Origin: Solibacillus palustris
Lineage (GTDB): Bacteria > Bacillota > Bacilli > Bacillales_A > Planococcaceae
Direction: 5' to 3'
Length of the DNA stretch: 64,000 nucleotides
NCBI RefSeq assembly: GCF_022549215.1
Contig: NZ_JAKZFC010000007.1
Coordinates: 62,001 to 126,000, forward strand
This document shows positions 52,931 through 64,000 of the stretch, in pieces. The stretch's first letter is position 1. Every line of letters starts with the position of its first letter. Both the position numbers and the translations under genes were made by a program. Under the pieces are notes generated by a model. That model saw only the letters and a list, made by a program, of their open reading frames with translations. It was not told the DNA's origin and ran no database searches.

Positions 52931-53785
52931 TTATAGCATTTTTTCAATAACAGCCTTTGCAGTTCGTTCTTTGTTGGGAACTGCTTCCGTAATCGTTCGT
53001 TTAAAATATTCAAAGTAGAGAAGATCTAAAAGATACAGTTGCGCGATTTTTGCAGATAAACTCCCCCCTTGAAGTGGACCTTCATTCGCACCGCTAAGCA
53101 AAGTAATGTCCGAGAAGCTCGTCAAAGGGGATTTTGCGAATCTTGTAATGGAAATAATTTTTGCGCCGCGTTCTTTTGCTACTTTTGCCACTTCGATCGT
53201 ATCTTTTGTTGAACCTGAATAGGAAATGAGGATCGCTACATCTTTTTCTGTCATTAAGGCAGCGGACATTACTTGAAGATGTGAATCGATCGAGCATTCC
53301 GTTTTATTCGTAATCCTCATAAACTTGTTTTTCGCTTCCATTGCGGTCATTAAGGAGGAACCTACCCCAAAAAAGTGAATCCTTTCCGCTTGTACCATAC
53401 TTTCAACGGCATCGGAAATATCAATTTCTGACATTAAATTATACGTCTCTGTTAGTGCATTTACATTTGAGGATAATGCTTTAGAAGCTAACTCTCCAAT
53501 CGTGTCTTGCAAAGTAATAACGCTGGATAGTTGTGGGGTTTCGTCATCAAGGGAAATGCTATGTGCTAAAACAATTTTAAATTCTTGGTATCCTTTCAAA
53601 TCCATCGTTTTGCAAAATCTAAAAACACTGGATTCCCCTACATTGCATGCGTCTGCTAAATCCGTTATGGACATGTAAATAACGTCTTTCATATTTTCAA
53701 GAATATAGTCAGCCACTTTTTTCTCTGTGTTCGTGAATGAATTATACCTTGAATGAATGAGTGAAAAAATATCTTGGTTTCCCAT
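52931..53785 (-). CDS. MurR/RpiR-family regulator with SIS domain
   Basis: 284 residues. N-terminal HTH_6 (NTEKKVADYILENMKDVIYMSITDLADACNVGESSVFRFCK), then a C-terminal SIS phosphosugar-binding domain (RIHFFGVGSSLMTAMEAKNKF and ILISYSGSTKDTIEVAK). Such regulators sense a sugar phosphate made by the operon, here probably a hexosamine 6-phosphate. ATG 53785 is 6 nt after AAAGGAG. Last gene of the cluster. Confidence 0.92.
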   Translation of the reverse strand: MGNQDIFSLIHSRYNSFTNTEKKVADYILENMKDVIYMSITDLADACNVGESSVFRFCKTMDLKGYQEFKIVLAHSISLDDETPQLSSVITLQDTIGELASKALSSNVNALTETYNLMSEIDISDAVESMVQAERIHFFGVGSSLMTAMEAKNKFMRITNKTECSIDSHLQVMSAALMTEKDVAILISYSGSTKDTIEVAKVAKERGAKIISITRFAKSPLTSFSDITLLSGANEGPLQGGSLSAKIAQLYLLDLLYFEYFKRTITEAVPNKERTAKAVIEKML

Positions 53786-53802
53786 GTTGAACTCCTTTAT
53801 TT

Positions 53803-54681
53803 TCAATTTTGATGAAGTGACACTGCACCAAGAAGTCCGGCCTTATTGCCAAGGGAGGCTTTCATAATTTTCACATCTGAAAAGCACTCCATAGTCAACT
53901 CTCGAACTTTACTTGATACCATATTGACAACACTTTCCTGCTCCATTACGCCGCCACCGATAATAATTGCTGGTGGGTTAAAAATGTGAATAAGGGATGT
54001 GAGGCCTAATGCTACTTCTTCAACCCAATCATGAAGAACTTTTGCGAGGCTTTTATCTCCCTCAGCTAATCGATCAAAAAATAGGCGACCATTTATTACG
54101 TCAGGATGTATTTCCTGTGCTTTTTTAATTAAAGCGGTTGTCGAGGCATATGTTTCATAGCAACCTGCCTTGCTACAGTTACACTTATTTCCAAAAGGGT
54201 GGGTAATGATATGCCCAAACATTGCCGCCAAACCGTTATTCCCTTTATATAGTTTTGAATTCATTACAATGGCACCACCAATACCTGTACCATATGTTAA
54301 ACATAAAAAATCATTAAACTCCTTGGCAACACCAAAGTGCAGTTCTCCTAAAGCGGCTGCATATACATCATTTTCAACTTTAACGGGAACTTTAAAGTGA
54401 TTTTCTAAAATTTTCTTTAATTTTGTGCCGGTATAGTACGGAATATTGTCGTTCGCATAAATGATCGAACCTTCTATACTATTAACCTGCCCAGCAGTGC
54501 TAATGCCAATCGCATCAAAGTCCTCGTATTCACTTATTATCTTAATTAGTTTTTCAACTAAATATTTTCCACCTTTTTCACTTTCCGTGCCGAACGCTTT
54601 CAATAATTCAATCTTACCCTCTTTATTTGAGATGCCAACTTTTATAGATGTTCCGCCAATATCGGCTGCCAATATTTTCAT
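53803..54681 (-). CDS. ROK-family sugar kinase with altered sugar site
   Basis: 292 residues. ATP site [12 protein letters not shown], catalytic Asp in [13 protein letters not shown], and a zinc site built from His and CNCSKAGC. The ROK hallmark ExGH reads MFGH (AAMFGHII), so the sugar-contacting Glu is Met. Its place beside nanE suggests a ManNAc kinase; the lost Glu hints at a different or modified sugar. ATG 54681 is 9 nt after GAGG. Confidence 0.88.
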
Positions 54682-54728
54682 TTTCGTCATCCTCTACATC
54701 TATCTTTTCTAGCAGAATAATAACTTCT

Positions 54729-55424
54729 TTATTCATCTTTTATGGCAGAAATAAATCTTTTGGTAATTTCCATAGGTCTCGTAATCGCTGTGCCAACGAC
54801 AGCTGTATGAACGCCTACTTCGAAAACGCGCTTCAGTTGCTCCGGCGTCCAAATTCCCCCTTCAGCAATGACAGGGATCGGGAAATCCTGTACTAATTTT
54901 TCCATTAACGCTAGATTGGGTAATTGCTGCCCCATTGTATATTCCGTATAACCGCTTAATGTTGTACCTAAGCAATCAAACCCTAATTCATAAGCCTCTT
55001 TCGCTTCTTCATAGGTCGAACAATCCGCCATAAAAATTTGCTCTTTATACGTTTCCCTAATTTCAGGGAATACTTCACTGATTGTCTTTCCGTCAGGTCG
55101 AATCCTTTTCGTTGCATCGAGTGCAATAATATCTACACCTTCCACGTAAAGAAGTTCAATTTCTTTATTTGTCGGTGTTATAAATACATCCGACCCTTCA
55201 TACACCTGCTTAATAATGCCAATAATCGGCAGTTCAACAACCTTTTTCATTTCTTTAATATCTTCCACACTATTAGCTCGAATCCCCTTTGCTCCTCCAA
55301 GCATTGCAGCGTAAGCCATTTTACTCATAATAAAAGGGCTATGAAGGGGTTCTTCTGGAAGCGCCTGACATGAAACGATTAATTGTCCATGAATACGACT
55401 AAAAATTCTTTGTTTATTATTCAT
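54729..55424 (-). CDS. nanE: N-acetylmannosamine-6-phosphate 2-epimerase
   Basis: 231 residues, TIM barrel. Diagnostic blocks are LIVSCQALPEEPLHS, GAKGIRANS, IIGIIKQ, DIIALDATKRIRP and VIAEGGIWTPEQ. Converts ManNAc-6-P to GlcNAc-6-P. No sialate lyase (nanA) is present in the window, so ManNAc itself or a ManNAc-yielding compound is the likely input. A gap of 330 nt separates it from the esterase gene upstream. Confidence 0.94.
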   Translation of the reverse strand: MNNKQRIFSRIHGQLIVSCQALPEEPLHSPFIMSKMAYAAMLGGAKGIRANSVEDIKEMKKVVELPIIGIIKQVYEGSDVFITPTNKEIELLYVEGVDIIALDATKRIRPDGKTISEVFPEIRETYKEQIFMADCSTYEEAKEAYELGFDCLGTTLSGYTEYTMGQQLPNLALMEKLVQDFPIPVIAEGGIWTPEQLKRVFEVGVHTAVVGTAITRPMEITKRFISAIKDE

Positions 55425-55475
55425 TTACATACATCTCCACGTAAAAAATATTACATCGTCCGCGTCTCTTAAAGA

Positions 55476-55509
55476 GGCCGGGAGTAAAGCAGGTGCTTTA
55501 CTCCCGGCC
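55476..55509. repeat. Perfect 15-bp inverted repeat before nanE
   Basis: GGCCGGGAGTAAAGC and GCTTTACTCCCGGCC flank a 4-nt centre. GC-rich for this genome. No strong T run follows on either strand, so it is not a classical terminator. It lies in the 55425-55754 gap, which otherwise shows nothing clear. Confidence 0.75.
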
Positions 55510-55754
55510 TTACGTATTTTCGATGAAAATAAAAGACTGTTATTTTATTCAATATATAGAGCTGTCTTAATTTGTTGAGGTTGCCGATTGCCAAATTGAC
55601 CTCCATCTAATGTTCCTCGTAATTATTATGGCTAAACAAACAACTACTGTATTTTGCATAATTTAAATACACATTTTTAACAATTGGAAAATTGAAATTC
55701 CGAAATCAGTGCTGAGGAACACAATTTCCGGTAAAAACAGCTCCAAATAGAAGC

Positions 55755-56462
55755 CTACTTTACAAAAAATCTTAATGTATTTAATAAATCATTTTCCCAA
55801 ACACGCCAGAGATGTTCATCTTGCGTTTCTTTATAGTTCACATTTGCACTGTGTAAAAGAAAGCATTTATACAATTGACGGTTTCTCGTCAAAATATATA
55901 ATTTTTCGTTTGACATGGGGGTAATAAATTCGTCTTCGTAAATACCAACAGTTTGATATACATGCCACCCCGAAAGATTCAGGTTCCCTATTCGCCCTAT
56001 ATCCTCTATTGACACCGCAGGAGATTGTAGCATTAAATGCGTCCATCGATCCGGGTTGTCCAATGCAATATTTAAACTAATATTACCTGCCAACGAATCT
56101 CCTAATAGCCCTCTTTTTAAAATCACTTCAACCTGTAAACTTTTCTCGAAAGTGGGGATAAATTCGTCGTTCATAAAGCGAATATAGTGCGAAAATAGCG
56201 CACCCTTGCTACTAAATGATGCCCATCTTTCAAACGAATCTCCAGGATGAATGCACACAAATACAAGGTGCTGTGCTAGTTCAGGATTGTCACGTACTAA
56301 ATGAAGCATAGCTTGTTCTAAATTGCCCAATTCCAAATAGTCAAATCCGTCCTGAACATATACTATATACGCATTTTTTATATCATTACACATCGTGAGA
56401 ACTGTATAATTTATCGCTTTATTTAAATGCAAACTATTGAACACACTATGACTTTTATTCAT
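55755..56462 (-). CDS. Esterase of the Fes/EstD type (alpha/beta hydrolase)
   Basis: 235 residues. Nucleophile Ser in LLGDSLAGNISLN, His in QDEHLWRVWENDL at the end, and IVYVQDGFDYLELGN as the first core strand. Belongs to the enterochelin esterase-like putative esterase family. No signal peptide. In this cluster it could remove acyl groups from a sugar or cleave an ester link (inference). AAGGAG precedes the ATG. Confidence 0.82.
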   Translation of the reverse strand: MNKSHSVFNSLHLNKAINYTVLTMCNDIKNAYIVYVQDGFDYLELGNLEQAMLHLVRDNPELAQHLVFVCIHPGDSFERWASFSSKGALFSHYIRFMNDEFIPTFEKSLQVEVILKRGLLGDSLAGNISLNIALDNPDRWTHLMLQSPAVSIEDIGRIGNLNLSGWHVYQTVGIYEDEFITPMSNEKLYILTRNRQLYKCFLLHSANVNYKETQDEHLWRVWENDLLNTLRFFVK

Positions 56463-56517
56463 TACATTTAGCTCCTTCTAGCAGCGTGGCAATATACGTA
56501 TTCATTATCTGCGTGCT

Positions 56518-57696
56518 TTATTTTATGAACCTTTCAAATTCGCCCCACCATTGATAATCCTCTAAATAGATCGTGTCAAATAACATAACCCCATTTGTTT
56601 GTTCTTTACATAACTTTACAGCCTTCAAAAATTGCTCGACATTATCTTGATAATCTTTCAAATACAAACTAGCGATAACAGGTATTTGTCCATTAATCAC
56701 TTCTTTGCTCATTTCAATTGCACCTTCAACGCTGTACCAATTGGCTGGTCTTTGATTGTTTTTAGCCTCTTCTATCGTGACTTCTGGGTAATAGCAGCCT
56801 GTCATGATAAAATCAAATTCCTCTGCATACGCTGCTGTGCAGTATGTATCAGAAACCCATTCGAAAGATGGCTGATACGTTTTGCTGCCCCAGTTGACAC
56901 CTTCATTGTAATAAAGTGGGTACCACGAACCAACATATACAGTAAAAATTAAATCTGTGTTTTTTGTTTTCACTACATTCCTTGCTTTTTTAACAAAATT
57001 CTTAATATTATTTGCTCGGAACTCTGCCCATTTAGGGAACAGCTTACCAAAAACAGGTTTTTTATGCTCCACTGTCATAATATCTGTCGGCCAATTTTCT
57101 ATTTTTTGTTCAATGTAAGCTTCAAATTTCTCTTTGCTTAAACGACTAAAATCGCCATAAATATTCGGATAACGGCATCGATCTAATACGACACCATCGA
57201 TTTCGTAATGATTAATAATTTCTTGAATAATAGATAATTCGTATGCTTCCACTTCTGGGTGAATTGGATTGACGAAAATGGTCGGATCATTATGATTTTC
57301 CATAGCTGTCGGCATATTAGAAAATGACTCATCATAGAGCGTAACTCTCCACTCTGGTTTGCTATATACCATTCCTTCTTTATTGATGCCACTGCCTTCT
57401 GAAAACACATCAACATTTGCAATAACCTTCAAACCAGTCCCTTTGGCATGTTCAATCATCTCCTGAAGAAAATCTCGGCCTTCCCATCTCTTATATTGTT
57501 CATCTTTCATTTCGCTTACATGGAAGGCAAATTGACTTGGATATGTTGTAAATCCATATGGAATTTTCGCATCAACTACTAAATGCGTTATTTTACAATT
57601 TTGGGCATGTTCGATTAACTCTTTCATTTTATTAGCATCTAGCAATCTAGTAGCATTTGCTAAAAAATCTACCCATAAAATATTCGATTGTTCCAT
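56518..57696 (-). CDS. GHL10-like putative glycoside hydrolase
   Basis: 392 residues, TIM barrel, no signal peptide. Blocks are VVDAKIPYGF, LKVIANVDVF, NPIHPEVEAYELSIIQEII and YEIDGVVLDRCRYPNIY, the last being the GHL10/DUF4015 acidic strand. C-terminal GVMLFDTIYLEDYQWW is also typical. Probably cleaves a glycosidic bond of an imported sugar in the cytoplasm. It starts 16 nt after the FAD gene stop. Confidence 0.83.
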   Translation of the reverse strand: MEQSNILWVDFLANATRLLDANKMKELIEHAQNCKITHLVVDAKIPYGFTTYPSQFAFHVSEMKDEQYKRWEGRDFLQEMIEHAKGTGLKVIANVDVFSEGSGINKEGMVYSKPEWRVTLYDESFSNMPTAMENHNDPTIFVNPIHPEVEAYELSIIQEIINHYEIDGVVLDRCRYPNIYGDFSRLSKEKFEAYIEQKIENWPTDIMTVEHKKPVFGKLFPKWAEFRANNIKNFVKKARNVVKTKNTDLIFTVYVGSWYPLYYNEGVNWGSKTYQPSFEWVSDTYCTAAYAEEFDFIMTGCYYPEVTIEEAKNNQRPANWYSVEGAIEMSKEVINGQIPVIASLYLKDYQDNVEQFLKAVKLCKEQTNGVMLFDTIYLEDYQWWGEFERFIK

Positions 57697-57712
57697 TTAG
57701 TTCTTCCTTTCC

Positions 57713-59290
57713 TTATAAGTCAATATCCTCTGGCCAATGAAGCTGAACGCCATTAGCAAGAAGTAACGATTGGTACTCTTTCAAATACTTTTCCTCTTGT
57801 CTTACCTGATGAGGCGTAACCTGATTCAACATCGAAAATGCCACTAAATATCCTGCTGATTCACCAATATTCCACTCTGTTGGATGAAGCCTATAGCAGC
57901 CATTTGTAATTTGTGTTGTGCCAATATTTTTACAAGCTGGAATTACATTTTTTACGCGGATAGGCAGTAAGGCGCCTAATGGGATTTCATAAGGATAGTT
58001 TGGTATATAAAAGCTTCGGTTCGTTACCGTCGTATGATGTAGATCTAAATGATAGCTACCAACACCGACACTATCGAAATAGGTGCAAATGCCTTTTTCA
58101 CCCCTTATTTCCTTACTAACTTCTTGCTCTGTTATTGTATGCATGGCTTTAATTCTTCTCGATTCTCGAATATATGGATACTTTGCTAGCCCATCCTCTG
58201 TACCCATAACATCCTTTCGAAGCCTTAAACTAGGAAAACCTTTTCCCCCATCTAATCTTGGCGCCTCTGTTTGAAGCCAGTATAAGAGGGATAAGCTTTG
58301 TTGTTTAGCATTTTTTAAGTTCTTCTCAATTTCCTCATTAGAAACTCCAATAATTGGCCCTAGAAAATAATCATTTTGCGCCCAATTTATTAGTGATATA
58401 TCACCCTCATATAGCGCTCCATCAATATTATTAGTATCCAGTATTCTCCGATATGTAAACAAAGAGGGTATCTGTTGTTCATTGGGGAATAATGTGAATT
58501 CCTTTAATTTTGTCGTATCATCAGCATCTACTGCATACCAGCTAAATAAAGGAAGGTGCGAGAACTTTGGCATATAGTTACGCCAAAAATCATATTGCTC
58601 TGGCTTTTCAATAACAAAATTTCCACCCTCTATATAATCAACAGCAAAAACATAAGTAAAGGACTGCATATCTTTCGGATTTGATTCTTCTAATGCATGA
58701 GGTTCCCCAGTAATTAATCTAGATTCAGCACCTGTTACATATTCAACCCCTGCAATTGGTAAGACATCACCACATTCAGTTGCATCCAAAAAATAGTGCC
58801 CACTCAATTCAATTTTTGCCAACTCATTGACATGTACAACTGTGATGGACTGTACCGTATCTCCGTCCTTTGTTGCCTCTATCGGTTTATAGTTATATAA
58901 AATTTTTATTTTCCCACTATTTACAAAGGGTGCCAGCATATCGGAAATTACATTTAGCGCAACTTTAGGCTCATGTGCCAGCCTACTCACCCAGCCATTG
59001 CCAGGATTCAATAAATCATTTTCTTTTGCTTCTTTAGTAAGTGGATAGTTGTCACGATAATATTGACGCACTCGATTCCTAAATTCTCGGTACGTGCTCG
59101 TGCAGCCAAAGTGCTCAATCCATCGATGTTCATCTGGCGGTACTCCTTGACTTGTAAGTTGTCCACCTAACCAATCTGTTTCCTCCGTCATAATAACCTG
59201 ATAGCCCATTTTGGCAACCGCTAATGCTGCCATACAACCTCCTAGGCCTCCACCTATTACAATAACATCCGAATTTTCTTGTTTCATCAT
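57713..59290 (-). CDS. FAD-dependent oxidoreductase (FAD_oxidored family)
   Basis: 525 residues. Rossmann motif VIVIGGGLGGCMAAL at the N-terminus, DWLGGQLTSQG, YFLDATECGDVLPIAG, and a C-terminal GCYRLHPTEWNIGESAGYL block. Relatives are often annotated xanthan-lyase-like and occur in carbohydrate clusters. Cytoplasmic. May oxidise a sugar hydroxyl to activate the glycoside for cleavage (inference). GGGGGG precedes the ATG. Confidence 0.88.
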   Translation of the reverse strand: MMKQENSDVIVIGGGLGGCMAALAVAKMGYQVIMTEETDWLGGQLTSQGVPPDEHRWIEHFGCTSTYREFRNRVRQYYRDNYPLTKEAKENDLLNPGNGWVSRLAHEPKVALNVISDMLAPFVNSGKIKILYNYKPIEATKDGDTVQSITVVHVNELAKIELSGHYFLDATECGDVLPIAGVEYVTGAESRLITGEPHALEESNPKDMQSFTYVFAVDYIEGGNFVIEKPEQYDFWRNYMPKFSHLPLFSWYAVDADDTTKLKEFTLFPNEQQIPSLFTYRRILDTNNIDGALYEGDISLINWAQNDYFLGPIIGVSNEEIEKNLKNAKQQSLSLLYWLQTEAPRLDGGKGFPSLRLRKDVMGTEDGLAKYPYIRESRRIKAMHTITEQEVSKEIRGEKGICTYFDSVGVGSYHLDLHHTTVTNRSFYIPNYPYEIPLGALLPIRVKNVIPACKNIGTTQITNGCYRLHPTEWNIGESAGYLVAFSMLNQVTPHQVRQEEKYLKEYQSLLLANGVQLHWPEDIDL

Positions 59291-59331
59291 ATAGAAGCCC
59301 CCCTTTAGTCACTAGCTTTCTCATTCCTTGC

Positions 59332-60849
59332 CTATTTGATATGTTCAACAGTCAAGCCAACTTCAAACATCCGGCTCCATGGCATCGTACATTCCTTGAT
59401 GTGTATGCTATTTTCATCATCGATTAGATGCTCTTGTATAAATGAGGTTAGTTGTGATTGCACAATGTTAGCAACGACCCCTTTTTTGCCATCCACACGG
59501 AAGTAATTGTAACCTAGCTCAGGTAATCTGTTATTCGTTACATCATTCCTTACATAGCTACAATATCCCGCATCTTCTACATAGCGTAATGCTAAAAAAT
59601 TGCGATGGGCTTGTGATTCCCCAAAAATATTGTAAAACATCCCCTGCGCTATGCATGTACCTAATGAATTTGAACTTGTATTCCAACCTGCATAGCCAGC
59701 CAATGAGAAAAGAATGTTTTTATATTTCATTAATTTTAATAGCTCTAAGTCTGAACCATTCGCGAAAGCTACATCCGCTACGATACAAGGAATAGTTCGT
59801 TTCTTCACCGTGAATTCAAGCTGCTCAACAAAATCAATAAGATTTCGATTCACTTGATAAGTTGTACTCAGGTCCCCTTGACAGGAAGCCTCTAACATTG
59901 GTTCTACAGGTGCATTTACAAATAAAACAAGATCCGCTTCTTGCATATTTGTCGTCATCAGTCCCCCCGCAGCTAATATTTGATATTTAAGTGTCTCCAA
60001 TAATGGCCTGTCTTCGTATAGTGGCGTAACTGCAGGTCCTTGACTACTCGAAAATACCGGATAAATCAACGGTCTCTTGTCTTTAAAAGCGTTCAACATT
60101 CTGGCAAGTAAAGTGCAACCAACTTCATCCGCGCCTGGATACATATAGACATCTAGTTCTAAATGATGGGCTGCAATAGCTCCTCTTACTGCCTGTTGAT
60201 CCATAGCGGTCCAACCATAGGGAGCCGAATCATCTTGCGGAATAATAAGAAAATCAATGATTCCCTTGCTCACATATTCGAGTACAAGTTGATTGACACC
60301 GACATTAACCTTTCTTCTAGCTAAATAATCCTCAACATGCTCTTTAGGCAATTGACACTTTAATGCTTCACATTCCTTTTTCTCCTCCAATGATGCGAGG
60401 TTAGCAGCTATTAAATGTGAAAGTTCGCCATACCGGAAAATTTCCTTTCCCCAGTACTCATAGTAATCGGGCTCTTCATCATTACTAGAATACTGAGGAC
60501 ATCTCATAATGAGATTAAAAGCATATATTTTTACGTTTGAGTTACCCGCTTTAATTCTTGAAAGTTTGTTTAGTATTTTTTCGCAATCCTCTAACGACAA
60601 TTGATGCAGTCTTGAAGGGATAATTCCGCCAAATAATAATGTATCTATTGAAAGAATAAGACCATCTGCATCCATGGACTCCTTATATAACCAATCCCAT
60701 AGTTGTTCTATGTCCCCTGGTTTCTTTTTTTCCCCCATTAAATTTAAACTAGGGCGTACGAGATTTACTTCCGTTTGGTCGGTTAAAAGGTTTGGAAAAG
60801 AATAATTACATGGTCGCTCATCTAATGGAACATAAACAATTTTTTGCAT
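59332..60849 (-). CDS. DUF4127-family protein
   Basis: 505 residues. Opens with VYVPLDERPCNYSFP, the DUF4127 hallmark; other blocks are LILSIDTLLFGGIIPSRLH, LIIPQDDSAPYGW, and MYPGADEVGCTLLARML. No biochemical function is established for this family as far as I know. The conserved Asp, Glu, Arg and His residues suggest an enzyme. First gene after the repeat element; GAGGGGGG precedes ATG. Confidence 0.87.
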   Translation of the reverse strand: MQKIVYVPLDERPCNYSFPNLLTDQTEVNLVRPSLNLMGEKKKPGDIEQLWDWLYKESMDADGLILSIDTLLFGGIIPSRLHQLSLEDCEKILNKLSRIKAGNSNVKIYAFNLIMRCPQYSSNDEEPDYYEYWGKEIFRYGELSHLIAANLASLEEKKECEALKCQLPKEHVEDYLARRKVNVGVNQLVLEYVSKGIIDFLIIPQDDSAPYGWTAMDQQAVRGAIAAHHLELDVYMYPGADEVGCTLLARMLNAFKDKRPLIYPVFSSSQGPAVTPLYEDRPLLETLKYQILAAGGLMTTNMQEADLVLFVNAPVEPMLEASCQGDLSTTYQVNRNLIDFVEQLEFTVKKRTIPCIVADVAFANGSDLELLKLMKYKNILFSLAGYAGWNTSSNSLGTCIAQGMFYNIFGESQAHRNFLALRYVEDAGYCSYVRNDVTNNRLPELGYNYFRVDGKKGVVANIVQSQLTSFIQEHLIDDENSIHIKECTMPWSRMFEVGLTVEHIK

Positions 60850-60879
60850 GTATACACCCCCTCGTAATCGATGTTTATC

Positions 60880-61070
60880 AATTACGCCCCAGCGTAATTG
60901 CGTCCAGATTTTTTCGAGCTCGCTCGAAAACCTCCCCTAAAAAATCTGTGACATCCGCCGGAGCTTAACTTGATTCAGCCGGGGTTTGAATCCCCACTGA
61001 ATAGAATTACTTTTTCGGCATTCATCCCCCACTTATAGAAGTAGGGGACTTCTGCTGAATCATGTTAAAA
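60880..61070. repeat. Dispersed multi-hairpin repeat, long copy
   Basis: Four stems in tandem: AATTACGC/GCGTAATT (60880-60899), CAGATTTTTT/AAAAAATCTG (60905-60948) with an inner TCGAGC/GCTCGA, TTCAG..GGGG/CCCC..CTGAA (60974-61001), CCCCACTT/AAGTAGGGG (61027-61047). Its parts recur at 30428 and 52831. It fills the gap between the permease genes and DUF4127 and may attenuate or process the operon transcript. Confidence 0.75.
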
Positions 61071-61084
61071 AATTTGCAGACCAT

Positions 61085-61930
61085 CTATCCTTTTATAGCT
61101 CCTGAAATGCCTTCCATAAAGTATTTTTGAGTTAATAAAAATACGATAATAATAGGAAGAACAGAGATAACCGTTCCAGCTGCTATCCATCCAAAGTTAT
61201 AAGAAAACTGTCCATTTAGGAAACTTAAAGCAGAAGCTAATGGGTACTTGTCTGTATTCAATACGATAATTGGCCATAAAAAGCTGTTCCAACTTGCCAT
61301 AAATTCGAATAAGGCAACAACAGCAATCGCTGGTTTTATCATCGGCATCATCAGTTGCCACCAAATACGTAATTCAGAGGCACCATCCATCTTTCCAGAA
61401 TCCCTAATGTCGCTAGGAATCCCCATAAATGCCTGCCTAAATAGAAATACATTAAAAACGGTTACTAAGCCTGGAAGTACCACGCCAGTAAATGTATTGA
61501 TTAAACCAAGCTTATTTATTGTTAAATAATTGACAACTAGACCCGCAGCAGCAGGGATAATCATCGTAGCAATCAACGCCACAAAAATAATATTCTTCCC
61601 TTTAAACTTGAATATAGCTAATGGATATGCGGTTAAACTACATAATAAAATACTGAATACCACACCAAAAAATGTGATAATGACTGTATTCCATATGTAT
61701 TTAAGGAAATCCATATACTGCCAAACATCTACATAATTTTTAAAATCAATAAATGTCGGAAATATAGCAGGTGGAAAAGCAAATACATTTTTCCCAGGCA
61801 TTAGCGAAACACTTAGTAACCAAAGGAATGGCCCCATCATTAAAAGAGCAAATAGCATTAACGGTATATAAATAAGGACTTTATTTTGAATGGTTTTTAG
61901 TAGTTTTCTATTTTTCATCGCTTTATCCAT
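61085..61930 (-). CDS. Carbohydrate ABC transporter permease, MalG type
   Basis: 281 residues with six membrane helices. The EAA loop is in SGKMDGASELRIWWQLMMPMIKPA, and the N-terminus has MGPFLWLLSVSLMPGKN. Pairs with the MalF-type permease, which overlaps by 1 nt (TAATG). The cognate ATPase is not in the window; many such importers share a general MsmX-type ATPase. Confidence 0.92.
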   Translation of the reverse strand: MDKAMKNRKLLKTIQNKVLIYIPLMLFALLMMGPFLWLLSVSLMPGKNVFAFPPAIFPTFIDFKNYVDVWQYMDFLKYIWNTVIITFFGVVFSILLCSLTAYPLAIFKFKGKNIIFVALIATMIIPAAAGLVVNYLTINKLGLINTFTGVVLPGLVTVFNVFLFRQAFMGIPSDIRDSGKMDGASELRIWWQLMMPMIKPAIAVVALFEFMASWNSFLWPIIVLNTDKYPLASALSFLNGQFSYNFGWIAAGTVISVLPIIIVFLLTQKYFMEGISGAIKG

Positions 61931-62829
61931 TAATATGGATTTACACCACCCTTCTTATTAAATAGGAAGATGAAAATACTAAAGAACATAATAATAAAAC
62001 TAATAATTAACCCTAATGCTGATGAATATCCAAATTCAAATACTTCGAATCCTTGTTCGTAAATATAGAGGCTACTCGTTAACGTTGCATTCCCAGGACC
62101 TCCAGATGTCAGGACAAATACTTCATCAAACACACGTATCGCTGACATGAGGGAAATCAATGTGCAGAAAAACACATATGGTTTTAATAAAGGAATGGTG
62201 ATTTTTCTAATGACTTGGAAGTTGCTTGCCCCATCTATCTTCGCTGCCTCAATGCAGTCTGTCGGAACTGCCTGTAAGCCTGCAAGATAAATCATCATAT
62301 AATAGCCCAACCCTTTCCACAGGGTAATAAACATTACTGCCCAAAGTGCCGTATCCTTATCAGATAACCAACTGATTTTTTCATTTATAATGCCAATAGA
62401 CAGTAGTATGTAGTTCAAAACCCCATTTGAACTCATTAACCAACCCCAAATAATCGAAACCGCAACCATCGATGTAACGACAGGAATATAAAAGGCAGCT
62501 CGGAAAAATTTAATCCCCGCTATCTTTCGATTGACTAATATCGCCATAAATATCGATATAATTTGAATAAAAGGAACAATAATCATATAAAACAGCGAAT
62601 TTTTAACAGACGCAATAAAATTGACATCAGAAAATGCCCGTTTAAAGTTTTCAAACCCTACAAATTTTGTTTCGCCGATCACCGAATAATTTGTAAAGGC
62701 TAGAGGGACACTATAAATAATCGGCCAAAAGGTAAAAATAGCGAGCAATATGAGTCCTGGAGCCATAAATAACCATGCTGTTTGGACTTCTGAAAATCTA
62801 CTTAATTTTGCAACTCTTTTCTGTTTCAA
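61930..62829 (-). CDS. Carbohydrate ABC transporter permease, MalF type
   Basis: 299 residues with six membrane helices. AWLFMAPGLILLAIFTFWPIIYS is the usual first helix, and the EAA loop is EAAKIDGASNFQVIRKITIPLLKP. Between binding-protein and MalG-type genes. GGAGG precedes the ATG. Confidence 0.93.
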   Translation of the reverse strand: MKQKRVAKLSRFSEVQTAWLFMAPGLILLAIFTFWPIIYSVPLAFTNYSVIGETKFVGFENFKRAFSDVNFIASVKNSLFYMIIVPFIQIISIFMAILVNRKIAGIKFFRAAFYIPVVTSMVAVSIIWGWLMSSNGVLNYILLSIGIINEKISWLSDKDTALWAVMFITLWKGLGYYMMIYLAGLQAVPTDCIEAAKIDGASNFQVIRKITIPLLKPYVFFCTLISLMSAIRVFDEVFVLTSGGPGNATLTSSLYIYEQGFEVFEFGYSSALGLIISFIIMFFSIFIFLFNKKGGVNPY

Positions 62830-62887
62830 AGGACTTCCCTCCTATCGAAAATGGGCAGAAATGCATCTGCCCATTCGTTTTTTGTCT

Positions 62888-64000
62888 TTAGCGACTTAAA
62901 ATATCGTTAATTTCTTTTTCAGCTGCATCCAATTCAGTATTAAGATCTTGTTCATTAATATAGATATTTTGCAGGCGCTTATTAAAGGCTTTATTTACAT
63001 CATTCGCATTTTCAATACCTAGGTAAAAGTCCGACGCTTTATCTAAACTTTCAACAGATGCTGTTAATGCTTGCCCCTCTAATGTTCCATCGTTTTTATA
63101 GAAGAATTCATCCTTTGCAGCTGCTTTCGTTGAAGGCAGTGTACTTGCTACTTTAGAGAATGCCAATTGATTTGCATCGTTTGTTACATAGTGTGCAAAT
63201 GCAGTTGCTGCTTCAACATTATCAGAAGCATTTGGTACAACTAGATTCATAGAGTTCGTAAAACGAATCCCTGCTTTTCCAAGTGGTGCTGGCACGGCAA
63301 TCGTTTTCTTGTATACATCTGGTGAAGCCGTTTTTAATTGATTAATAAATGATGAACTCGAGATAATCATCGCTACTTGCTCACTACCAAATAGTTGAAC
63401 TTGTTGGGCGAATGCAGGAATATCCTTAGGAATAACCCCTGCTTTAATTAGCTCTATATTGCTTTGGATATACGCTTTTACTTCATCATTATTAAATGCC
63501 GCTTTTCCTCCTTCAGCCACTTTGAACCCTTCTTCAAGAATAGAGCGCGTTTCCATCGTGAAAACATAACCGAAAGAACCCGTTTTTTCTTGAATTTGTT
63601 CACCCCAGTTAGCCAAATCTGCTTTTGTTTGTGGAGGATTATTAATATCTAGTCCAGCTTTTTCTACTAAGTCTGTGTTGATATAAAGCACAGGAATTCC
63701 TGTATACCAAGGCAATGCATATGCACCATTATCAACTACTGTAGAATTGTAGATTCCGTCAAAATAGATACTTCGCTGTTCTTCTGTTAATTGTTTATTA
63801 AAGTCTGTTAATGCACCTTTTGAAGCCATTTGACTTGCCAATTCAGTATTTAAATTGACAACATCTGGTGCTTGCTTACTCGCAATGCTTGTTAATAATT
63901 TATTTTGGATTGCGTCATACGGGAAGTCTTTCCAATCAATTTTTACACCTGGATTCTCTTTCTCATAATTCGCTATTAATTCATTAAAGTAATCATTAAA
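62888..64000 (-). CDS. Extracellular sugar-binding protein, partial (N-terminus off window)
   Basis: 370 residues of a family 1 solute-binding protein; the frame runs off the right edge without its signal peptide. Landmarks are ENPGVKIDWKDFPYDAIQNKLLTSIASKQAPDVVN, ALPWYTGIPVLYINTDLV and a C-terminal NKRLQNIYINEQD. It delivers the sugar ligand to the two permeases downstream. Ligand unknown; the operon suggests an amino-sugar glycoside. Confidence 0.9.
   Translation of the reverse strand, partial: FNDYFNELIANYEKENPGVKIDWKDFPYDAIQNKLLTSIASKQAPDVVNLNTELASQMASKGALTDFNKQLTEEQRSIYFDGIYNSTVVDNGAYALPWYTGIPVLYINTDLVEKAGLDINNPPQTKADLANWGEQIQEKTGSFGYVFTMETRSILEEGFKVAEGGKAAFNNDEVKAYIQSNIELIKAGVIPKDIPAFAQQVQLFGSEQVAMIISSSSFINQLKTASPDVYKKTIAVPAPLGKAGIRFTNSMNLVVPNASDNVEAATAFAHYVTNDANQLAFSKVASTLPSTKAAAKDEFFYKNDGTLEGQALTASVESLDKASDFYLGIENANDVNKAFNKRLQNIYINEQDLNTELDAAEKEINDILSR

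Follow-up and report, generated by a model that had tools for sequence, protein, structure and literature searches.

Ten consecutive genes on the minus strand of Solibacillus palustris DNA, at positions 52931-64000 of the 64,000-nucleotide stretch analyzed here (the window), join a sugar importer of the ATP-binding cassette (ABC) type to a DUF4127 protein, a FAD_oxidored flavoprotein, a GHL10 glycoside hydrolase-like protein, an esterase, the epimerase NanE, a ROK kinase and an RpiR-type regulator, and this cluster is conserved across many Bacillales and also in some more distant genomes of the phylum. Every one of the ten genes is open and scores above the curated Pfam cut-off for its family (for the binding protein, a 317-amino-acid part was scanned), so that the families named in an earlier note on this DNA stand as given. 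We propose an operon for an O-acylated amino-sugar oligosaccharide, in which N-acetylmannosamine (ManNAc) would be converted to N-acetylglucosamine 6-phosphate (GlcNAc-6P) and FAD_oxidored and DUF4127 would perform a redox-coupled cleavage; taken as a whole, this statement has about an even chance of being right. Its overall class, amino-sugar catabolism via ManNAc 6-phosphate (ManNAc-6P), is likely, and the redox-coupled role of DUF4127, drawn from analogy, is put forward tentatively, as an idea that may well prove wrong.

The gene arrangement is far beyond chance. A profile scan of genome contigs revealed 462 encoded relatives of DUF4127, the best 80 of which (48-74% identity in the best segment; mostly Paenibacillus, with Psychrobacillus, Fredinandcohnia, Neobacillus and some others) were taken with up to 10 kb of flanking sequence on each side, with full flanks at 60 of the 80 loci. 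Above score thresholds, NanE was found near 63 of these best 80, the binding protein near 61, each permease near 60 and FAD_oxidored near 58, followed by RpiR (51), ROK (43), GHL10 (18), the glycoside hydrolase families GH84 (13) and GH20C (12) and the esterase (8), counts that lean upward because the hidden Markov models used for counting were built partly from the same 80 loci. FAD_oxidored and NanE were both present at 51 loci, and all ten gene types at eight (L035-L042, from Psychrobacillus, Fredinandcohnia and two Bacillus sp.). By comparison, 20 control stretches of 20 kb, scored with no threshold, contained one permease-like and one weak RpiR-like match and nothing else; their positions were picked by hand in seven genomes that bear the cluster, Paenibacillus records not among them. 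The earlier note would have fallen if these genes did not co-occur in other genomes; they do, with neither NanE nor FAD_oxidored seen in the controls, and its view of DUF4127 as part of a catabolic set is likewise supported.

Literature and PDB searches found neither a function nor a solved structure for DUF4127, yet the family occurs in 63 of the 398 genomes in our sample of the phylum, which includes the host genome. Here too its partners lie closer than random placement in 3 Mb genomes would give. Among 51 NanE genes (matches of at least 140 bits), 11 have a DUF4127 gene within 12 kb, compared to 0.38 expected, and DUF4127 is present in 27 of the 43 genomes with NanE versus 34 of the 355 others. 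Likewise, 22 of 94 strong FAD_oxidored genes are within 5 kb of DUF4127, compared to 0.46 expected; this count uses 94 of 95 listed rows (the partial row of G272 is left out) and 62 of the 63 DUF4127 genomes, which were also those searched for NamZ (G251, whose only match is below the cut-off, is left out). Distances were counted for 87 of 96 DUF4127 rows, omitting six presumed second pieces of listed genes, two rows of G067 and one of G251, and in many genomes only some of the first-look candidates were scored. A tree of 65 rows places the window gene in a supported clade of 35; FAD_oxidored or NanE is nearby for 26 of these, and the other 8 linked rows belong to other parts of the tree.

At the product end, a route from ManNAc via ManNAc-6P to GlcNAc-6P is well supported by sequence comparison, because regulator, kinase, the lack of a typical sialate lyase and genes for the downstream steps all point to it. 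The best PDB sequence match of the RpiR protein is 4ivn (E 3.6e-38), which is the V. vulnificus NanR complexed with ManNAc-6P, and the S. pneumoniae NanR binds the same compound (both according to an excerpt of preprint PMC12713135). The ROK protein is closest in the PDB to 5nck, a ManNAc kinase (E 7.7e-57). The sialate lyase NanA is missing from the ten genes, and none of 14 cluster-bearing genomes reaches the strict TIGR00683 cut-off for it (best score 218 bits in G408 versus a cut-off of 382). Moreover, the cluster at L098 is followed by genes of the amidohydrolase and glucosamine-isomerase families (Pfam) that look NagA- and NagB-like by eye, and two NagA genes above the cut-off are encoded elsewhere in the host genome. 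We also considered the specificity motif of the ROK kinases, which is variable and allows no conclusion.

The window DUF4127 protein, the only one encoded in the 4.0 Mb host genome, in which the window spans C40:62001-126000, matches PF13552 with 547.7 bits (cut-off 27) over profile positions 1-488 of 489. Across 13 members with 28-93% identity to it, the invariant residues include P8, D10, R12, P13, N15, R80, R116, R179, D207, D241, E242, E279, D280, D359, N364, D367, N390, D426, R434, W491 and R493, among others, and the Asp, Arg and Asn residues among them give an enzyme-like pattern. The structure prediction that the earlier note had suggested was run with AlphaFold2 (49 sequences) and gave a confident model, with a mean predicted local distance difference test score (pLDDT) of 94.7 and a predicted template modelling (TM) score of 0.93. 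A Foldseek search of the PDB returned nine matches with E values of at most 0.001 (best 6e-5) and probabilities of up to 0.94 (UDP-GlcNAc 2-epimerase). No convincing fold match was found among the matches listed, because these 50 mix two-domain Rossmann-type proteins with TIM barrels, have low TM-scores (0.13-0.22 on the query, at most 0.31 on either length) and root-mean-square deviations of at least 12. A sequence search of the PDB gave nothing credible. Distant kinship to an AP_endonuc_2-like protein (one compared), to NamZ or to GHL10 was rejected at hhalign probabilities of 0.3%, 0.5% and 0.1%, respectively. Residues 3-314 match phrog_20208, an unnamed phage protein family (E 8e-24), indicating that DUF4127-like proteins occur in phages. 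For the FAD_oxidored protein (model pLDDT 85.2), the fold does not single out a chemistry: many kinds of FAD enzymes matched with TM-scores of 0.22-0.37 on the query, pyranose oxidase included. Two more FAD_oxidored genes are located away from the operon in the host genome (C39:52430-53857 and C33:174927-176168).

The strongest hint, by analogy, that DUF4127 acts beside a sugar-oxidising step comes from an exchange of the oxidoreductase. At eight Paenibacillus loci (L056, L058-L060, L062, L063, L084 and L095), a Gfo/Idh/MocA oxidoreductase gene and an AP_endonuc_2 gene directly precede NanE-DUF4127 (Pfam was run on L084 only), and FAD_oxidored was not seen there. According to excerpts of the respective papers, members of these two families act on levoglucosan (PMC7676230) and on O-glycosides (PMC10628242) by 3-oxidation, beta-elimination, hydration and reduction. 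Relatives of the pair, about 59% and 50% identical, are encoded in the host genome ~5-7 kb beyond the operon, and a Gfo/Idh relative also occurs at L052, alongside FAD_oxidored. In this respect the cluster resembles the levoglucosan Lgd operon of Bacillus smithii and the GlycDH/AtOGE operon of Agrobacterium described in those excerpts, where an oxidoreductase likewise stands beside candidate cleavage proteins. In contrast to both, the window flavoprotein belongs to FAD_oxidored (PF12831), NanE and an amino-sugar context are present, redox activity on the sugar is a prediction, and a TIM-barrel eliminase/hydratase of the AP_endonuc_2 kind is absent from the ten operon genes. The host-genome pair is part of a longer row of genes (L161 793-3624), in which a Gfo/Idh-like gene stands between an AP_endonuc_2 gene and a second, AP_endonuc_2-like one, with what looks by eye like an oligopeptide-type ABC transporter after them; this is likely a second oxidation-elimination sugar operon next door.

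Distant members of the phylum carry much of the cluster. L116 and L117 have NanE, RpiR, ROK, ABC genes, GHL10, FAD_oxidored, DUF4127 and GH84; GH84 is missing from L129 and L149, where a GH20-type or similar protein is found, GHL10 from L121 and L130, NanE and the ABC genes from L115, and FAD_oxidored from L150. The distant flavoproteins form another PF12831 subfamily, mostly of 450-500 amino acids and scoring 54-106 bits against the Bacillales-type model. Since two FAD_oxidored subfamilies occupy the same slot, this suggests that the redox step rather than one particular protein is what is kept.

Several loci show further variation around DUF4127. In a second DUF4127 clade (L125, L133, L145 and L149), the gene occurs together with FAD_oxidored and a gene for a TIM-barrel-like protein of ~231 amino acids; this protein has no Pfam match (L145 scanned) and may be an epimerase relative, as its hhalign probability to NanE is 88.7%. 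Within 11 kb at L131 (3-10743) lie genes for DUF4127, for a FAD_oxidored that seems to be secreted and for a fusion of NamZ with a copper amine oxidase N-terminal domain; this would be an extracellular version of the FAD_oxidored/DUF4127 pair, and in G272 FAD_oxidored, DUF4127 and NamZ are found within about 12 kb. A metagenome-assembled genome labelled Acholeplasmataceae has three tandem DUF4127 genes, three GHL10 genes and one GH84-like gene (L110 1778-13871). A GNAT acetyltransferase, perhaps for N-acetylation of a free amino sugar, is encoded between FAD_oxidored and DUF4127 at L116 (3188-4105), L098 (9040-9984) and L117. Proteins of the ADP-ribosylglycohydrolase family recur near DUF4127, at L115 (11798-13162, by Pfam) and L117 and, by eye, at L052, L064 and L101. 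In G408, of the same genus as the host, the esterase gene is in two pieces (L153 5099-5992) and the 19.5-kb stretch shows no NanE, ROK or RpiR, as if the operon were decaying or had been rearranged.

Gene content, family membership, conserved linkage and the lack of a typical NanA were computed directly, and the following pathway would be compatible with them. The substrate would be an imported, partly O-acylated oligosaccharide of the cell-wall type, containing GlcNAc together with ManNAc or a residue that yields ManNAc. By comparison with characterized relatives, the binding protein and the two permeases are predicted to import it, with the ATPase encoded elsewhere. Association and analogy suggest that the esterase would then remove O-acyl groups and that GHL10, in some relatives together with GH84 or GH20 hexosaminidases, would split the backbone. 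On these same grounds, FAD_oxidored and DUF4127 might open a linkage or ring beyond ordinary hydrolases, by oxidation and then elimination or hydration on the sugar, with release of ManNAc. The remaining steps again follow characterized relatives: ROK would form ManNAc-6P, which RpiR would sense, NanE would convert it to GlcNAc-6P, and NagA and NagB encoded elsewhere would complete the route. A more specific version has DUF4127 as the first representative of a new sugar lyase/hydratase fold; together with FAD_oxidored, it would cleave 2-acetamido glycosides, either of beta-ManNAc or, with inversion at C2, of GlcNAc, through oxidation, elimination, hydration and re-reduction. In that version, protonation of C2 on the manno face would yield ManNAc and so explain why NanE keeps company with GlcNAc-type hexosaminidases and no sialate lyase; we regard it as speculative and would rather expect it to fail.

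A number of observations weigh against this pathway. Among the best 80 relatives, the ABC genes are the only partners at L066, L085 and L099, there is no partner at L067 and L073, L092 keeps only permeases, of another type, and GHL10, GH84 and GH20 are each found near a minority, in the numbers given above. In the phylum sample, 65 of 87 DUF4127 genes have no strong FAD_oxidored gene within 6 kb, an upper bound since FAD_oxidored candidates were partly scored, and 31 of the 65 tree rows lack both FAD_oxidored and NanE nearby. Many of the FAD-unlinked genes fall into other clades and lie in mixed contexts, and some appear by eye to encode signal peptides; no general partner of DUF4127 was seen outside the cluster, the contexts being different. 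Only 4 of the 16 genomes searched as host genus, including the host and another of its species, contain DUF4127. The window ROK protein has Met (Val in one genome of the same species and one of the same genus) at a position that is Glu or Asp in most kinases of the cluster. Finally, the eight Gfo/Idh loci have no visible ROK or RpiR and their ABC genes score low and are of another type, so that their shared core is NanE and DUF4127 only; moreover, these loci resemble one Paenibacillus species group and may reflect a single evolutionary event.

What the substrate might be can be approached from the hydrolases. The GHL10 domain of the window protein (PF02638, 85.3 bits versus a cut-off of 27.9, profile positions 13-233 of 311) gives a weak sequence match to Cwp19 (E 0.0013). 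We take DigH to be a further member of GHL10. In the excerpts available, Cwp19 is described as a GHL10 lytic transglycosylase (PMC6016235) and DigH as cleaving denuded peptidoglycan glycans (PMC12288456). The window protein resembles both in its GHL10 domain; unlike them, it shows no signal peptide by eye, has DUF4985 in addition and is encoded within an operon for sugar import. Relatives of the cluster add hexosaminidase-type enzymes, namely GH20C (L035), GH84 (L076) and GH20 (L129), as well as a GH3 protein (L145), and esterases of the AXE1 (L118), GDSL (L035 and L098) or another alpha/beta hydrolase type (L054). The binding protein is closest in the PDB to 6wpm, and its nearest structures are uninformative as to the ligand.

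One alternative to the pathway proposed here, which we regard as possible and somewhat doubtful, is the degradation of a ManNAc-bearing secondary wall polymer or of the ManNAc-GlcNAc linkage unit of wall teichoic acid. A hexosaminidase would take GlcNAc, the esterase would take acetyl, and DUF4127 and FAD_oxidored would cleave or unmask beta-ManNAc, e.g., by removing a 4,6-pyruvyl ketal. The wall polymer of P. alvei, [4)-beta-GlcNAc-(1-3)-4,6-Pyr-beta-ManNAc-(1] in an excerpt of PMC6030368, has the sugars required, and NanE and ROK would be explained by its ManNAc. In line with this, one related cluster (L044) encodes a 1553-amino-acid GHL10 protein with three S-layer homology (SLH) domains, and the host genome has one PS_pyruv_trans gene (181 bits) that is possibly CsaB. 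However, SLH domains occur in only one of seven proteins scanned, the PS_pyruv_trans family is broader than CsaB, with matches above the cut-off in 8 of 14 control genomes, and both GHL10-type proteins whose activity the excerpts describe act on peptidoglycan.

For that last reason, peptidoglycan fragments match the hydrolases about as well. In a salvage pathway for such fragments (GlcNAc-MurNAc, MurNAc being N-acetylmuramic acid, or 1,6-anhydro-MurNAc), GHL10 and the hexosaminidases would yield MurNAc or anhydro-MurNAc, and FAD_oxidored and DUF4127 would stand in for MurQ and give ManNAc. Besides the activities of Cwp19 and DigH, the esterases would suit O-acetyl-MurNAc, and the GH3 protein of L145 stands next to one DUF4127/FAD_oxidored locus and a NamZ protein next to another. 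Two genomes, G235 and G272, have NamZ no more than 12 kb from DUF4127, which makes 2 of 32 NamZ matches compared to 0.31 expected (P about 0.04); as a regular DUF4127 partner it was rejected, being weak at best, with just 2 of 20 NamZ-bearing genomes (of 62) having it nearby. Against such salvage, the operon has no MurQ gene, the sole match above the cut-off in the host genome being on another contig (C1), NamZ gave no match in the host genome at E 1e-20, and NanE would need new chemistry to be explained. We consider this explanation unlikely, and rank the wall polymer above peptidoglycan as a candidate substrate.

It is similarly improbable that the operon handles plain ManNAc/GlcNAc oligosaccharides, with DUF4127 as an accessory, e.g., a binding or editing protein, and FAD_oxidored detoxifying a side product. 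L066, L085 and L099, which keep the ABC genes and DUF4127 without FAD_oxidored, NanE, ROK and RpiR, and the mixed contexts of DUF4127 outside the cluster would be in line with such a role, whereas the many invariant polar residues look enzyme-like and FAD_oxidored is nearby far above chance. A variant of the sialic acid nan operons, with which the cluster shares NanE, a NanK-like ROK kinase and an RpiR regulator most similar, among PDB sequences, to a ManNAc-6P-binding protein, is very hard to credit, since unlike them it has no NanA, as detailed above, and no sialidase among the proteins scanned, and DUF4127, FAD_oxidored, GHL10 and an esterase are present instead.

The layout of the redox-coupled amino-sugar operon proposed here is given in the following table.

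Genes and other features of the DUF4127 operon in the window (strand as read 5' to 3'; dot, no strand)
Feature	Position	Strand	Evidence
RpiR/MurR-type regulator (HTH_6 + SIS)	52931..53806	-	Pfam; PDB sequence match 4ivn
ROK sugar kinase, probably ManNAc kinase	53803..54690	-	Pfam; PDB sequence match 5nck
NanE, N-acetylmannosamine-6-phosphate 2-epimerase	54729..55424	-	PF04131 (226 bits) and NCBIfam NF002231, both over cut-off
Inverted repeat, esterase/NanE gap	55474..55511	.	16 perfect pairs (17 with G-T), 4-base loop
Putative esterase (alpha/beta hydrolase)	55755..56462	-	PF00756, 61 bits
GHL10 glycoside hydrolase-like protein with DUF4985	56518..57696	-	Pfam
FAD_oxidored flavoprotein	57713..59290	-	PF12831, 327 bits
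DUF4127 protein	59332..60849	-	PF13552, 548 bits
CUT1-type sugar ABC permease	61085..61930	-	BPD_transp_1; nearest NCBIfam models
CUT1-type sugar ABC permease (second)	61930..62829	-	BPD_transp_1; nearest NCBIfam models
Sugar-type solute-binding protein	62888..64000, runs ~195 bases past the window	-	SBP_bac_8

Gene spacing is mostly tight, with overlaps between RpiR and ROK and between the two permeases, and with two larger gaps, of 330 bases between NanE and the esterase and of 235 bases between DUF4127 and the permease. The complete binding-protein gene encodes 435 amino acids and extends from window position 62888 to about 64195 (L002 12888-14195). None of the ten genes encodes an ATPase; within the next 2.5 kb beyond the window, the opposite strand carries a PucR-type regulator and an open reading frame for a MsmK/UgpC-like ATPase (named by eye; L002 15387-16658). 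The exact core of the inverted repeat is unique in the genome, with six further places at 2 mismatches; the repeat is present in a same-species genome (L154) and absent from L152, and may be an operon split or an RNA-processing mark. A scan for promoters and terminators found sites no commoner than in shuffled sequences.

In openly licensed PubMed Central (PMC) papers, we found no description of this strongly conserved cluster, in line with the earlier note, which had called it undescribed; neither the term DUF4127 nor NanE together with a FAD oxidoreductase and unknown domains occurs in those searched. PF12831/FAD_oxidored appears in one of these papers, on the flavoproteome of Brucella ovis. 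Of the earlier reading, the conserved sugar cluster, the ManNAc branch without a typical sialate lyase and the place of DUF4127 in the set hold, while oxidation-assisted cleavage, an argument from analogy, and an SLH-bound ManNAc wall polymer as the source are plausible.

For one large branch of DUF4127, which may be a new enzyme family, the conserved cluster narrows the role to amino-sugar catabolism with a coupled redox enzyme. It also supplies partner proteins and candidate substrates, so that the function can be tested with few purified proteins. To our knowledge, there is no classical hydrolase for glycosides such as beta-ManNAc. If the redox-coupled role of DUF4127 is true, the cluster would represent a bacterial way to cleave such glycosides and a recycling route for ManNAc-bearing wall polymers.

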